Assembly: GCA_945861245.1 (NCBI GenBank)
Contig: CAMAUE010000004.1
Span: 1 to 64,000, forward strand
Reading direction: 5' to 3'
Source of the DNA: Singulisphaera sp. GP187
GTDB taxonomy: Bacteria > Planctomycetota > Planctomycetia > Gemmatales > Gemmataceae
DNA length: 64,000 nt
The position numbers were made by a program, and so were the translations under genes. Below the pieces are notes generated by a model. That model did no database searches and had not been told where the DNA came from. It was given only the letters and a program-made list of their open reading frames with translations. Below, in pieces: positions 2,126 to 63,744 of this stretch; within the stretch, counting starts at the first letter, position 1; each line of letters starts with the position of its first letter.

Positions 2126-3952
2126 ATGAGTCTCGAACTTAATAGCAAACCCTTGCTGCGAACCTTGGCTCCCGCCTTGAAGGAGTTGGAACGGCGGTTG
2201 CGCGCGTGGCTCGGCGCGAAGCGGCGCTATCCGCTGACGACGCTGCAGCGGGCGGCCCTGGAAGGCATCGCCGACGATCTTTTGCGCCAGGCCGACGCGC
2301 TGCAACTCGATCAACCACTGCTCACTGTCATGCTCATGGGCGGGACAGGCGTCGGCAAGTCGACGCTGCTCAACGCGCTCGCCGGTGGCGCCATCGCGCA
2401 AGCGTCGTTCGCTCGGCCCACGACGCGCGATCCGGTCGTCTATTACCACAGCTCGGTGCAAACGACTCGGCTCGATCCCGCTCTCCAGTTCTGTCGCTTG
2501 GCGGCACATGACCGCGCCGAACTTGAGCAAAAGATCATCGTTGACACGCCCGACCTCGACAGCAACGACCTCTCCAACCGCGACAAATTGTTGCGTCTGC
2601 TGCCCGTGGCGGACATCGTGCTCTATGTCGGTTCGCAGGAGAAATATCACGACAAGCTCGGCTGGGAGTTGTTCCTCGAACAGCGCAAACGGCGGGCGTT
2701 CGCGTTCGTGCTCAACAAATGGGACCGCTGCCAGCACGCCGGCGCGACGGGCATTCGGCCTGACGACGATTTGATTCGTGACCTCAACTCCGAAGGATTT
2801 CAGAATCCGCTGGTGTTTCGGACCTGTGCCCAACACTGGATCGATCAACCTTACAGCGGCAACGGCGACGCCCCGCCCGTCGAAGGCGAGCAGTTCGCCG
2901 AGCTGATGCGCTGGCTGGAACTCGGCCTGACGCGCGTCGAGATCGAAGCAATCAAGGCACGCGGCGTGGGGCAGTTGCTCAAACAGCTCGACGACACGAT
3001 GCGCGACATCTGCCCGCCCGACCTGACCGCAGCCGCCGAGCGCGTGCGCAGCGCCTGGTCGCGTCAACTGGGCGACGAAGCCAATGGTGCGACGACCGTG
3101 TTGCTCAACACGCTCGATCCGTTTCAGCGCGAGATCGAACATCATTTCTCGAACGAACGCCAAAAGCAATTCAGCGGCTTGATGGGCTTGTACCTTCTCG
3201 GCGTCAACAAGCTGCGCTACACCGGCAGCACACTGCGCGACCAGATTCCGTTCATGGGCCGCGGCATGTCCGGTATACAGACGCCGCAGGAATGGAGTCT
3301 CGCCCGCTTCACGGAAGCATGCAGCGCGGCGGCGGCGGAGCAGCATCTCTCCTCACGCTTGAAGGCGCTGACCAATCGCCTGCTGATCGAAGCCGACACG
3401 CTCGGCATCCCACTTGGCCTATTGCAAGACTCCACTGAATCGGCATCGCGGTTGGATTGGAAGGCTCGCTACGCCCAGGCGATGATCGACGTCATCAGCA
3501 CCGTTGAACGTGCTTGGTCGCATCCGACCGGCGCGCGGCGTTGGCTTCAGAAACTCATCATCGTGCTGGCCGACTGGCTGCCGAGCTTGACGCTATTGAT
3601 CGGGGTTGGCGTGGTGTTGTGGCGATTTTTTATGCAACCTTCTATTGACATGATTTGGTTCGGAGCCCCATTCGCCGCCGTCGGCCTGGTGCTCATCAGC
3701 TTGCATGTCGCGATCGCGATGTGCCTGCCAATGCGCTGGTCGACGATCCGCGCGCAGTTGCAAGAGCACCTGGAGCAGCGTTTGCGCAACGAACTCGAGC
3801 GGCCGTATCATCAGGTCTTGGCCGACGTCGTGAGCGACATCGAAAGCGAACGGCGCCAGAACGAAGCGTACGTCAAGGAGATCGAGGAGGTCGCCGGCTT
3901 CCTGTCCGAACGCGAGCAGGCGGCGAGCATCGTGGGTTTGTACGGGAAATGA
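2126..3952 (+). CDS. Membrane-anchored dynamin/Era-like GTPase
   Basis: A 608-residue P-loop GTPase. The G1 motif GGTGVGKST lies at residues 72-80, the G3 motif DTPDLDSND at 140-148 and the G4 motif NKWD at 197-200. A helical middle section follows, then two hydrophobic segments near 475-502 and 513-538 and a charged C-terminal tail with coiled-coil character. This resembles the bacterial YfjP/50S-binding-GTPase or dynamin-like superfamily. The cellular role cannot be read from the sequence; membrane remodelling or an envelope-linked switch is possible. yidD follows after 16 nt, so the two are probably cotranscribed. AGGAGCGTG lies just before the ATG. Confidence 0.75.
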   Translation: MSLELNSKPLLRTLAPALKELERRLRAWLGAKRRYPLTTLQRAALEGIADDLLRQADALQLDQPLLTVMLMGGTGVGKSTLLNALAGGAIAQASFARPTTRDPVVYYHSSVQTTRLDPALQFCRLAAHDRAELEQKIIVDTPDLDSNDLSNRDKLLRLLPVADIVLYVGSQEKYHDKLGWELFLEQRKRRAFAFVLNKWDRCQHAGATGIRPDDDLIRDLNSEGFQNPLVFRTCAQHWIDQPYSGNGDAPPVEGEQFAELMRWLELGLTRVEIEAIKARGVGQLLKQLDDTMRDICPPDLTAAAERVRSAWSRQLGDEANGATTVLLNTLDPFQREIEHHFSNERQKQFSGLMGLYLLGVNKLRYTGSTLRDQIPFMGRGMSGIQTPQEWSLARFTEACSAAAAEQHLSSRLKALTNRLLIEADTLGIPLGLLQDSTESASRLDWKARYAQAMIDVISTVERAWSHPTGARRWLQKLIIVLADWLPSLTLLIGVGVVLWRFFMQPSIDMIWFGAPFAAVGLVLISLHVAIAMCLPMRWSTIRAQLQEHLEQRLRNELERPYHQVLADVVSDIESERRQNEAYVKEIEEVAGFLSEREQAASIVGLYGK

Positions 3953-4208: not shown

Positions 4209-5378
4209 TCAATACGGATAATGTGGCGTGCCGTCGAAGAGGTTGCGTGGGCGCAGCTCGAAGCCGGACCAGGCGATGGGTGTGGAACCGCGGAAGTCGT
4301 CTTTCACGAAACGGCCATCTTCCGAGCGCGGTTCGTGATGGCAGGCGGTGCTGAGCCAGAGCACGACATCGGCGTTCATGATCTTCTCGCCTTTGCGCAC
4401 ATACTCGTTTACCTTCGGATAGTAGAGTTGGTCCTTGCGATTCACCGTCACCCAGAAGTCGTGGTGTGTGCATTCTTCCTTTTCGCCGAAGTGGCGGGCG
4501 TTGCCCATGCGTGCCGTCACAACGTCGTACGACACCGGCATCTTGCGGATGTTCTTTCGCTTCTCCGCCGTCACGTTGACCATCGTAAACTTGTCGGCGT
4601 GAAAATCCTCAAAGCCTTCGACGCCCTTGTTGAATGGCCGGGCGATGGTCTTGGTCTTGCCTGGCTCGGCTTTGGTTTCGATATGGTCCATGGCCCAGAC
4701 GGAGTTTTTCGAGCCATCGAGATTGACATCGACGCGCCAAAGGCCGTTATGCATGTGGCCCTCGAACTCACGCGTGGAATAGTTGCGCCCGGTCGAGCCG
4801 ACGCGGAAGGTAATCACGCCGTCATCCTGAAAGCCGTACTCGATGACATAGCGGTAATTGGCAGCGTCGAGGCAGCCCCAGAGTTTCATGACCTGCCCGC
4901 GTTGCACGCCAGTCGCCGTGTCGATCCACATGATGCCGCGGTCGAGGACTTCCTTGGCGACGGTCGGCGTCTTGCCGAGCAGTTGCCCGTTCGGCCCCGC
5001 AGCTTCCTTGTTCAACGTGATGAGCGAGAAGTTGTACGACACATCCCAGAAACGCGGGCTGCCCGAATGATACGGCACGAACATCTCCGCCAGCCGGGCA
5101 TCGCCCAGCACTTGCATCCACGGCTCTTGCGGGCTGCGTTTGAACCAGGCATCCTGTATGGTCAATCCATAGCCGGAGGATGTGGCATAGCGCACCTTCC
5201 AGGCGGTTTTCATGGCGTCTACGCTGGGGAAGGCGTGAATGATTTCCGTGTCAGGTACAGGCGGCATCGGCGCGGGTTGCTCCGCTCGTGGCATCGCGGT
5301 CAAGCTCACGAGTACCAGCACAACGAACAATCCAGCAGCGCGAGTCCAGGTCATCGGAAATCTCCGAGGAAGTTTCAT
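4209..5378 (-). CDS. Secreted copper amine oxidase-like protein, short and with altered cofactor motif
   Basis: This 389-residue protein has a signal peptide (residues about 1-31) and then aligns by eye with the catalytic C-terminal domain of copper amine oxidases. MFVPYHSGSPRFW is at about 99-111, ANYRYVIEYGFQDDGVITFRVGSTG at 173-197, EGHMHNGLWRVDVNLDG at 206-222, and NADVVLWLSTACHHEPRSED then FELRPRNLFDGTP near the end. Copper ligands look present: H208-x-H210 and His347 or His348. The topaquinone consensus N-Y-D/E reads N174-Y175-R176 here, and the catalytic-base Y-D-x-G region reads SYNFSLI. The usual N-terminal domains are missing. It is either a divergent oxidase or a copper-binding relative without amine oxidase activity. 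Confidence 0.7.
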   Translation of the reverse strand: MKLPRRFPMTWTRAAGLFVVLVLVSLTAMPRAEQPAPMPPVPDTEIIHAFPSVDAMKTAWKVRYATSSGYGLTIQDAWFKRSPQEPWMQVLGDARLAEMFVPYHSGSPRFWDVSYNFSLITLNKEAAGPNGQLLGKTPTVAKEVLDRGIMWIDTATGVQRGQVMKLWGCLDAANYRYVIEYGFQDDGVITFRVGSTGRNYSTREFEGHMHNGLWRVDVNLDGSKNSVWAMDHIETKAEPGKTKTIARPFNKGVEGFEDFHADKFTMVNVTAEKRKNIRKMPVSYDVVTARMGNARHFGEKEECTHHDFWVTVNRKDQLYYPKVNEYVRKGEKIMNADVVLWLSTACHHEPRSEDGRFVKDDFRGSTPIAWSGFELRPRNLFDGTPHYPY

Positions 5379-5390
5379 TTTTTTCGCTTG

Positions 5391-5440
5391 CAGCGTAGCG
5401 TTCGGAATATCCTACGCGAGCGCTAAGCCGCAAGCGGAAA
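5391..5440. repeat. Palindromic repeat family A, copy 1
   Basis: Arms TTTCGCTTGCAGCGTAGCG and GCGAGCGCTAAGCCGCAAGCGGAAA. The right arm overlaps the 3' end of the next gene and supplies its TAG stop codon. Confidence 0.75.
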
Positions 5441-6241
5441 ACAGAGCGGGATCGGTTGCATCACGGTTCGCACACGGCGGCTCTCCGCGACCTGCCCGGC
5501 GTAACCGAGCATCATGGGCAACATCGTCAGCGTCATAATTGCCCAAAGGACCACCGAAAGGCCGAGGGCGTGCATCGGCTGGAATCGCAGGATCAACCAC
5601 AGGCCGATGAACCAGCCGAGCAGATGGCAGAAATTGAATACGAGGTTCAGGATCAGCAGTCCGAGATGGAATCTTCGCGGGATGCCCGTCGGGCCTACGT
5701 CGAATTCGATCATCGACCAGCCGTCCTTGCTGACAAACGTGCGGTAACCGCTGGGATCGCCGCGAACGAGATCGAACCGCATTTTCGTGCCGTCGACGTT
5801 ATCGGTCTCGATGGCGAGGATGTCCTGCGGCTGCCAACGCCGTTTCGCAAGGTTCCGTTCCTCGTAGTAAAACCGGCCACGATCATCGTATTGGCTGACG
5901 TAGGCGAAACGCTCGCCGTCCTGAAATTCACCGGCTTTCTTTCGCTTGACCGCCCAGATATTCTTAATGGGACGATCAAACTTTTCCACAACAGGGCTGA
6001 AGCGGTGGAGGGTATTGATCGGCAAATTCGTCGTGCTGGCGTTCGCGGAGAAGGCGATCGAGAAACACCAAATCGAGAAACCGAACGAAAGCAACACGCC
6101 GGCAAGCGGGGCCTGCCAGGCGATCCCGGCTGAGGGTTCGGTATAGATGTAACCCTGAAAATAATACGTGCCCGCCCAGAGCACCGCAGTGATGCCGATG
6201 GTGGCGACGATCAGAATCATGATGAGTGCCAGCACCAACAA
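5423..6241 (-). CDS. Polytopic membrane protein of unknown function
   Basis: A 272-residue protein I do not recognise. Hydrophobic segments lie at about residues 2-22 and 42-62, then 195-222 and 225-250. Between them is a soluble charged domain of about 130 residues (NIWAVKRKKAGEFQDGERF...FVSKDGWSMIEFDVGPTG). The layout suggests four transmembrane helices with one large loop. The last residues (CFPLAA) and the stop are encoded by a family A palindrome, so the native C-terminus may have been altered by the repeat. The adjacent amine-oxidase-like gene is on the same strand, 45 nt downstream. Confidence 0.6.
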   Translation of the reverse strand: MLVLALIMILIVATIGITAVLWAGTYYFQGYIYTEPSAGIAWQAPLAGVLLSFGFSIWCFSIAFSANASTTNLPINTLHRFSPVVEKFDRPIKNIWAVKRKKAGEFQDGERFAYVSQYDDRGRFYYEERNLAKRRWQPQDILAIETDNVDGTKMRFDLVRGDPSGYRTFVSKDGWSMIEFDVGPTGIPRRFHLGLLILNLVFNFCHLLGWFIGLWLILRFQPMHALGLSVVLWAIMTLTMLPMMLGYAGQVAESRRVRTVMQPIPLCFPLAA

Positions 6242-12383: not shown

Positions 12384-12394
12384 GGGATCTCCTG

Positions 12395-12455
12395 TTTTCC
12401 GCTTGCGGCTTAGCGCTCGACAGGTGCCGCGCGAGCGCTAAGCCGCAAGCGGAAA
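12395..12455. repeat. Palindromic repeat family A, copy 2
   Basis: Arms TTTTCCGCTTGCGGCTTAGCGCTCG and CGAGCGCTAAGCCGCAAGCGGAAA around 11 nt. It fills nearly all of the spacer between rpoN and recR, ending just before the recR stop codon. Confidence 0.9.
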
Positions 12456-16829: not shown

Positions 16830-17909
16830 ATGAGTTCCAATATGCGTCGGGAAGACAAGAAACGGCGGCGCGAAAAACGCCAATCCAAACGAGATCGCGA
16901 TGGCGACCGAGTGGACGACATGCTTAAAATGCTGGATCGGGCCGCGAACACGAAATTATCCGCGACATTCCCAGGCGCGTGCCATCCGTCCGTGAGCCGA
17001 CCGGATGCTCTGAAATTTGAGTTCGCACAGTGGGTTGCCAAAGGCCTCGGCAGCGATCGCATGCGACGGTTTGAGCGAAACATTGAGCAAGGTTTGCTCG
17101 CGGATTTTCCCAATCTTGATGATTGGGCGGCGGAGGAATTTTTCTGGCACGGCGCGCCCGGCGATCCGTGGCACCCAATCGATGCTTTCCTGGCGGCACA
17201 TGGCGACCGCTTTCCGCCTGCCGCTCAGGAGCAGATCAAACGCTGGAAGCAGGCCAAGTTTGGTTTCTACGAAGTCGGCGCCTGTGCGGACGATCTGATC
17301 TCGCTGCGTGAACGCGATCCGCTGACTATGCAACCCGTCGGCGATTGGATTCGGGCCATCGCGCTCAACATCGGCGGCGTGAACGATTACGCCAAGCAGA
17401 AAGGTTCAGTGGTAGTCACCTATGTTGCGCCGTGGGTGCCGGAGCAGAATATTTACTGCGCGATGGGCTACGGCATAGGGCTTTCCGAAGCCGGTTGTGC
17501 GCCTGTTGCGGTAGCGGTTATAGGCATGCGAAACATCAAAGCGGTAGCTATTCCTTTGCCGTGGCGGGGCGGGAAAGTCCCATTACAGAGATCCCTCGAA
17601 ACATGGCTCCAGCGCAATTGGTTCTTGTGGATGAAAGAGCGCGTTCGCTGTCCGTTCCCGGCGGTTGTGATGCCGCCGAACAGAGGCTCGCGAATTCTTA
17701 CAATCGATGACTGGGTTACGCAATCTGCCGAGGAGGCTGAGAAGATCGGCATCCACTTCTGCGCCAGTATCACGCCGGAAGAATTCGGCGTCTTCGGCGC
17801 GACGACGATCACGCCGCTCGATTTTGAAGGATCAACCGCATCGGCGCTGGCGGAGTACAAGGCGTTTCGTATGCTCACCGCCGAATTGATGCGCCGGAGT
17901 CGCCGGTGA
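16830..17909 (+). CDS. Conserved hypothetical protein
   Basis: The ATG at 16830 has AGGAG seven nt upstream and is preferred over 16824; the product has 359 residues. The N-terminus is very basic and charged (MRREDKKRRREKRQSKRDRDGDR). It is followed by a soluble globular part with many Trp (DDWAAEEFFWHGAPGDPWHPIDAF, NWFLWMKERVRCPF). No signal peptide, transmembrane segment or catalytic motif is recognised. The stop codon overlaps the outer edge of family B palindrome copy 2. Function unknown. Confidence 0.65.
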   Translation: MSSNMRREDKKRRREKRQSKRDRDGDRVDDMLKMLDRAANTKLSATFPGACHPSVSRPDALKFEFAQWVAKGLGSDRMRRFERNIEQGLLADFPNLDDWAAEEFFWHGAPGDPWHPIDAFLAAHGDRFPPAAQEQIKRWKQAKFGFYEVGACADDLISLRERDPLTMQPVGDWIRAIALNIGGVNDYAKQKGSVVVTYVAPWVPEQNIYCAMGYGIGLSEAGCAPVAVAVIGMRNIKAVAIPLPWRGGKVPLQRSLETWLQRNWFLWMKERVRCPFPAVVMPPNRGSRILTIDDWVTQSAEEAEKIGIHFCASITPEEFGVFGATTITPLDFEGSTASALAEYKAFRMLTAELMRRSRR

Positions 17910-17955
17910 AGCGTAAGCGACGGATTTCCTCATCCGTCGCTTACGCTTCCGCCTC
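17900..17955. repeat. Palindromic repeat family B, copy 2
   Basis: GAAGCGTAAGCGACGGAT and ATCCGTCGCTTACGCTTC arms around a 7-nt loop. It lies between convergent genes and overlaps the stop codon of the upstream gene. Confidence 0.85.
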
Positions 17956-37933: not shown

Positions 37934-38090
37934 ACGCGGACTTTTGTCGGTCGCGTCATGGGTGACGCCACCGACAAAAATACAAGCCGGAAGCGTAAGC
38001 GACGGATTTCTCCAGTCCGTCGCTTACGCTTCCGGCTCGTAAAGCGACTTTTGTCGGCGGCGTCAATACTGATGCTACCGACAAGAGCAC
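37934..38090. repeat. Palindrome cluster: family B copy 3 within a family H pair
   Basis: Family B copy 3 (about 37985-38037: AGCCGGAAGCGTAAGCGACGGA and its complement) is flanked by two hairpins built on ACTTTTGTCGGTCGCGTCA...TGACGCCACCGACAAAAAT and CTTTTGTCGGCGGCGTCA...CTACCGACAAGAG. A repeat appears to have inserted among others. Confidence 0.7.
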
Positions 38091-63608: not shown

Positions 63609-63672
63609 AAGTTGGATGTCGCTCATGTTGCTCATGCCAAAAGGGGTGAGCGAGATGAGCGACATCCAACTT
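63609..63672. repeat. Inverted repeat upstream of the DUF1501 gene
   Basis: AAGTTGGATGTCGCTCAT and ATGAGCGACATCCAACTT, perfect 18-nt arms, about 28 nt apart, with an inner GCTCATG/GGTGAGC pairing. Confidence 0.85.
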
Positions 63673-63678
63673 TGATCA

Positions 63679-63744
63679 CGAGCCGGAAGCGTAAGCGACG
63701 GATTGAGAAAACAAATCCAATCCGTCGCTTACGCTTCTGGCTCG
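63679..63744. repeat. Palindromic repeat family B, copy 4
   Basis: CGAGCCGGAAGCGTAAGCGACGGATTG...CAATCCGTCGCTTACGCTTCTGGCTCG around about 13 nt, directly after the preceding inverted repeat. Confidence 0.85.

Follow-up and report, generated by a model that had tools for sequence, protein, structure and literature searches.

A divergent single-domain copper amine oxidase of the Gemmataceae that probably forms topaquinone without the neighbouring acid, and a candidate D2-D3 partner gene in its relatives

The window analysed here is a stretch of 64,000 nucleotides of Singulisphaera sp. GP187 (contig CAMAUE010000004.1, positions 1 to 64,000), and the gene in question lies on its minus strand at 4209-5378. 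The product of this gene is probably a copper amine oxidase (CAO) that is exported, has a single domain, uses topaquinone and belongs to a divergent family centred on the Gemmataceae; a gene for the D2 and D3 domains would be ancestral to this family and lost in the window's genus. From the residues that the protein retains, it is most likely a copper/topaquinone oxidase with a relaxed cofactor motif, and not a dead copper protein. In ordinary CAOs, D2-D3 precede the catalytic domain within one chain.

Results

A gene for a CAO catalytic domain

The gene and its predicted export signal are as follows.

4209..5378, minus strand: CAO catalytic-domain gene, 389 amino acids plus stop (open reading frame list, PF01179 match, orthologues)
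5280..5378, minus strand: N-terminal export signal, hydrophobic at about residues 13-30, predicted by reading the sequence and likewise found in orthologues

A previous reading of the DNA, made from the sequence alone, had proposed here a CAO-like protein encoded by a 389-residue frame, and both proposals hold. Indeed, the protein matches PF01179 with 82.2 bits (Pfam cut-off 27, E=5e-23). In a search of the PDB, a profile of 22 family members (A2) picks out the E. coli CAO with E=5e-22 and, less strongly, the Arthrobacter, pea, yeast and mammalian CAOs; hhalign aligns the family over 327 columns (E=5e-34) with a set of eight canonical CAOs, of which E. coli TynA is the first. The catalytic domain is thus homologous to that of the topaquinone CAOs (PF01179; E. 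coli TynA/ECAO, Arthrobacter AGAO, Hansenula HPAO-1), with which the family shares the order of the gate Tyr, the Asp base, Asn-Tyr, HxH and HxPRxE(D). Unlike these enzymes, the window protein consists of the catalytic domain only, with no D2-D3 in the chain and with shorter loops, and it amounts to about 44 kDa against 70-80 kDa for their subunits.

A plus-strand frame of 401 amino acids runs across the same stretch. It is a shadow of the minus-strand codons, since the members of a near-identical pair differ at 9 first, 4 second and 30 third codon positions when read in the minus-strand frame. Translation may in fact begin at Met9 (about position 5354), where the starts of several orthologues align. 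Orthologues in other planctomycete genomes are 97, 74, 73, 71, 71, 60 and 58% identical to the window protein, and the gene is under purifying selection, with a ratio of non-synonymous to synonymous substitution (dN/dS) of 0.12-0.18.

The active-site residues are invariant

Conservation was counted in 29 family members, as low as 29% identical to the window protein, and in seven canonical CAOs. Equivalent residues are given in the mature numbering of the E. coli CAO, from which the numbering of its open reading frame is offset by 48. All the following lie on the minus strand.

5070..5072, minus strand: Tyr103, equivalent to the gate tyrosine Tyr369 of the E. coli CAO (hhalign), 29/29
5043..5045, minus strand: Asp112, equivalent to the catalytic base Asp383 (hhalign, MAFFT), 29/29
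4851..4859, minus strand: Asn174-Tyr175-Arg176, the topaquinone-precursor motif, equivalent to Asn465-Tyr466 for its first two residues, N and Y 29/29
4749..4757, minus strand: His208-Met-His210, by alignment the first two copper ligands, His524 and His526, 29/29
4335..4337, minus strand: His348, by alignment the third copper ligand, His689, 29/29

Ten positions (Y103, D112, N174, Y175, H208, H210, R215, H348, R351 and E353) are identical throughout the family, and the seven canonical CAOs carry the same residues at their counterparts. The copper-ligand pattern recognised by the sequence-only reading is present, as HMH at 208-210 and CHHEPRSED at 346-354. The same reading found no Asp motif in the region of the catalytic base and concluded that the usual cofactor context was missing. 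The first point is wrong, as D112 aligns with E. coli D383 by both methods and never varies. The second, apart from the motif at the cofactor site itself, is not supported, as the residues known to be required for copper, cofactor and oxidation are all retained. The aspartate was overlooked because the loop between it and the gate Tyr is five residues shorter in the family than in the E. coli CAO.

At the cofactor site, residues 173-177 read ANYRY in place of the usual N-Y-D/E, as had been noted. The residue after the precursor Tyr is R in 16 members, T in six, A in two, and N, M, L, F or V in one each. Among the orthologues of the window protein the Arg is invariant, and no close homologue has N-Y-D/E, a finding which would have counted as a refutation of the sequence-only reading.

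Distribution and paralogues of the family

Of 95 Gemmataceae genomes, 18 carry the divergent family (E below 1e-50), as does one genome of another planctomycete family of the same class (G068); a sample of 392 genomes spread over the phylum gave no further clear case. In the window's genus every one of the seven genomes has it: six have orthologues without internal stops, and one has a YbjN-type paralogue only. Beyond the phylum, genomes were covered by close-relative patterns only, together with plasmid and phage records, which gave only ordinary CAO-type matches of about 21-25% identity; a viral collection held no relatives. Canonical CAOs are common in the genomes that carry the family, and the window's own genome has a complete one (contig C122). 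In an unrooted maximum-likelihood tree, a long and fully supported branch separates the family from the canonical CAOs.

This divergent catalytic domain also occurs in fused paralogues, which have N-Y-T or N-Y-R at the cofactor site and unrelated N-terminal domains where CAOs have D2-D3. One of them, a 592-amino-acid YbjN-fused protein with N-Y-T at the cofactor site, is encoded in the window's own genome (contig C69, L080 6072-7814), and further paralogues of this fusion are found elsewhere in the genus. In G032 (contig C89), the catalytic domain is fused to a PPC domain rather than to a YbjN-type one. We considered the YbjN-type part as a hidden D2-D3 and rejected it (hhalign probability under 1%). 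A 1168-residue open frame of another genome (G293, L069 1-3504) ends in a very distant CAO-like region, which reaches 22 bits with PF01179 (below the cut-off) and has G-W-Y-R-Y for N-Y and HHHH at the copper site.

A separate D2-D3-like gene in relatives

In seven genomes (G035, G009, G032, G068, G033, G488 and G007), the gene directly upstream of the catalytic gene, on the same strand, encodes a predicted exported protein of about 200-310 amino acids, here called the companion. The two genes are separated by -4, 36, 10, 48, 51, about 630 and 46 bp, respectively, and two of the companions have lipoprotein-type signals. The loci of the companion family are the following.

L077, 5595-6188
L078, 1990-2592
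L075, 4141-4746
L076, 3304-4071
L079, 3246-4079
L070, 1468-2304
L074, 3021-3947

The companions match the combined profile of the CAO D2 and D3 domains (PF02727, PF02728). With hhalign, the comparison to the canonical N2-N3 (D2-D3) gave E=2.8e-7 and a score of 56, whereas none of 60 column-shuffled controls exceeded 14.8 and the reversed profile reached 11. The alignment of the three closest companions spans N2-N3 over its whole length (E=1.6e-7); the divergent ones of G007, G033 and G488 match the canonical N2-N3 at E=2.7e-5 and the other companions at E=8.9e-10. They differ from the canonical D2-D3 in being separate exported proteins, below the Pfam detection limit, and in having no counterpart in the window's genus. 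We also considered a single frameshifted gene as the source of the pairs, but each protein has its own start and export signal, and companion and catalytic gene therefore stand for two proteins.

The companion occurs in six of the 95 Gemmataceae genomes, always adjoining the CAO-like gene, and in the one genome of another family; nowhere else in these seven genomes was it found. Six random genomes would all fall among the 18 that carry the catalytic family with a chance of about 2e-5, relatedness ignored. The pairs are spread over several separate branches of the catalytic tree (at least three; five changes by parsimony), which suggests that the two-gene arrangement goes far back in the history of the family and that the window's genus lost it. 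We found no description of the family or of a split CAO in open-access papers.

In three genomes, which represent two branches, a gene for a Met-zincin protease (DUF4953/DUF5117) stands beside the pair (L074 87-2936, L070 1-1333, L076 252-3212).

Neighbourhood in the window

Two further features lie upstream of the CAO-like gene.

5423..6241, minus strand: membrane-protein gene, 272 amino acids, no Pfam match
5415..5444, no strand assigned: copy of a short interspersed repeat with core GAGCGCTAAGCCGCAAGC, between the CAO-like and membrane-protein genes

With this repeat between them, the two genes are less likely to form a tight operon. The membrane-protein gene occurs in 84 of the 95 Gemmataceae genomes and often lies far from the CAO gene; for its near-universal presence and its varying location we rejected its product as a dedicated partner. 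The window holds at least two kinds of such repeats (cores GAGCGCTAAGCCGCAAGC and GAAGCGTAAGCGACGGAT), some as inverted pairs, at 949-968, 5415-5444 and 12392-12455, and at 17908-17951, 37939-38040 and 63609-63737. Convergent with the CAO-like gene are those for an ApbE-family flavin transferase (1015-2031) and, following it, for a dynamin-like/MMR_HSR1 GTPase (2126-3952) whose C-terminus carries a membrane segment.

Discussion

Our results point to an enzyme in which the three histidines, invariant and aligned with the known ligands, would bind Cu(II), and in which Tyr175 would probably be oxidised by copper and oxygen to topaquinone despite the Arg that replaces Asp/Glu. Since D2-D3-like companions are found in at least three branches, the ancestor of the family presumably possessed the full domain set, with D2-D3 probably as a separate exported protein encoded directly upstream, which may have formed a complex with the catalytic protein. 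The window's genus, where searches do not recover the D2-D3 gene, would have lost it later and retained the bare catalytic domain. The arrangement thus looks like a CAO split into two genes. More tentatively, we envisage a two-polypeptide CAO in which the exported D2-D3 subunit, a lipoprotein in some genomes, docks on an acid-free, quinone-making subunit; the window's lineage would have the smallest, D2-D3-free version.

Several observations weigh against the main reading, that of an exported topaquinone oxidase with an ancestral D2-D3 gene. Neither the Asp/Glu after the precursor Tyr nor the consensus Thr three residues before the Asn (T-x-x-N-Y-D/E) is found in any family member (0/29 for each), whereas both are present in all the canonical CAOs compared (7/7 for each). 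Furthermore, the 'MP' Met region that follows the third His and is conserved in CAOs is replaced by an insert. The fold of the window protein is taken from homology, and AlphaFold2, run on an eight-sequence alignment, returned a pLDDT of 32. As for the companions, they have no match to the Pfam CAO domains PF02727 and PF02728 even at E=10, it is by profile-profile comparison alone that they look like D2-D3 homologues, and neither the window's own genome nor the other six of its genus yielded one.

Could the family then have kept the fold and the copper site without making topaquinone? The Tyr would be unmodified or converted to another species, and the protein would serve in copper storage or sensing or in other oxygen chemistry. 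The loss of both the acid and the Thr in all 29 members, the absence of D2-D3 from the chain and the deep divergence from canonical CAOs speak for such a protein. However, the Asp base and the gate Tyr, which serve turnover and not the holding of copper, are invariant in the same 29 sequences. In HPAO-1, turnover depends strictly on the Asp base, and of twelve residues put in place of the catalytic Asp in the E. coli CAO only Glu could take over its role, though very inefficiently (PMC3382800). The acid is less strictly required: when the corresponding Glu406 of yeast HPAO-1 is changed to Gln, topaquinone still forms, about tenfold more slowly (PMC3382800). Keeping the base while losing the acid beside the quinone is the pattern that we would expect of a functional oxidase whose cofactor environment has become relaxed. 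As the catalytic residues are all invariant, we favour a working oxidase and consider a copper protein of this kind unlikely. The sequence-only reading had suggested a copper protein, either descended from the oxidase or older than it, with a different reaction or none; a CAO relative with a non-standard motif it is, and the invariant residues disfavour the absence of a reaction. A comparable case may be the plant clade I (zeta) copper amine oxidases, likewise a CAO branch reported without the full topaquinone consensus T/S-X-X-N-Y-D (PMC12058724). These form an independent plant lineage, and the likeness is one of published description and not of sequence comparison.

A topaquinone oxidase could also have become adapted to large substrates, such as the lysines of proteins or of a matrix, the loss of D2-D3 and of several loops opening the amine channel and the D2-D3 protein controlling access in the relatives. 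In canonical CAOs, D3 adjoins the amine entry, and this position agrees with such a role, as do the predicted export of the protein and the Met-zincin protease gene that adjoins three of the pairs. However, no such protease neighbour is found at the loci of the window's genus, and we judge this specialisation quite improbable. Finally, the idea of an ordinary CAO copy that has been truncated and is in decay, which the short chain without D2-D3 and the complete canonical CAO of the same genome might have suggested, is refuted by the low dN/dS, the stop-free orthologues in six of the seven genus genomes, the invariant active site and the long, fully supported branch of the tree.

The acid after the topaquinone Tyr is usually regarded as part of an invariant cofactor-forming motif. 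If the window protein is indeed a topaquinone oxidase with a relaxed motif, its family would be a natural experiment on the role of this acid, in which the position has drifted to eight residues and the other catalytic residues have stayed fixed. In the same way, the separate D2-D3 gene and its apparent loss may offer a natural route to asking what these domains, conserved yet poorly understood, do.
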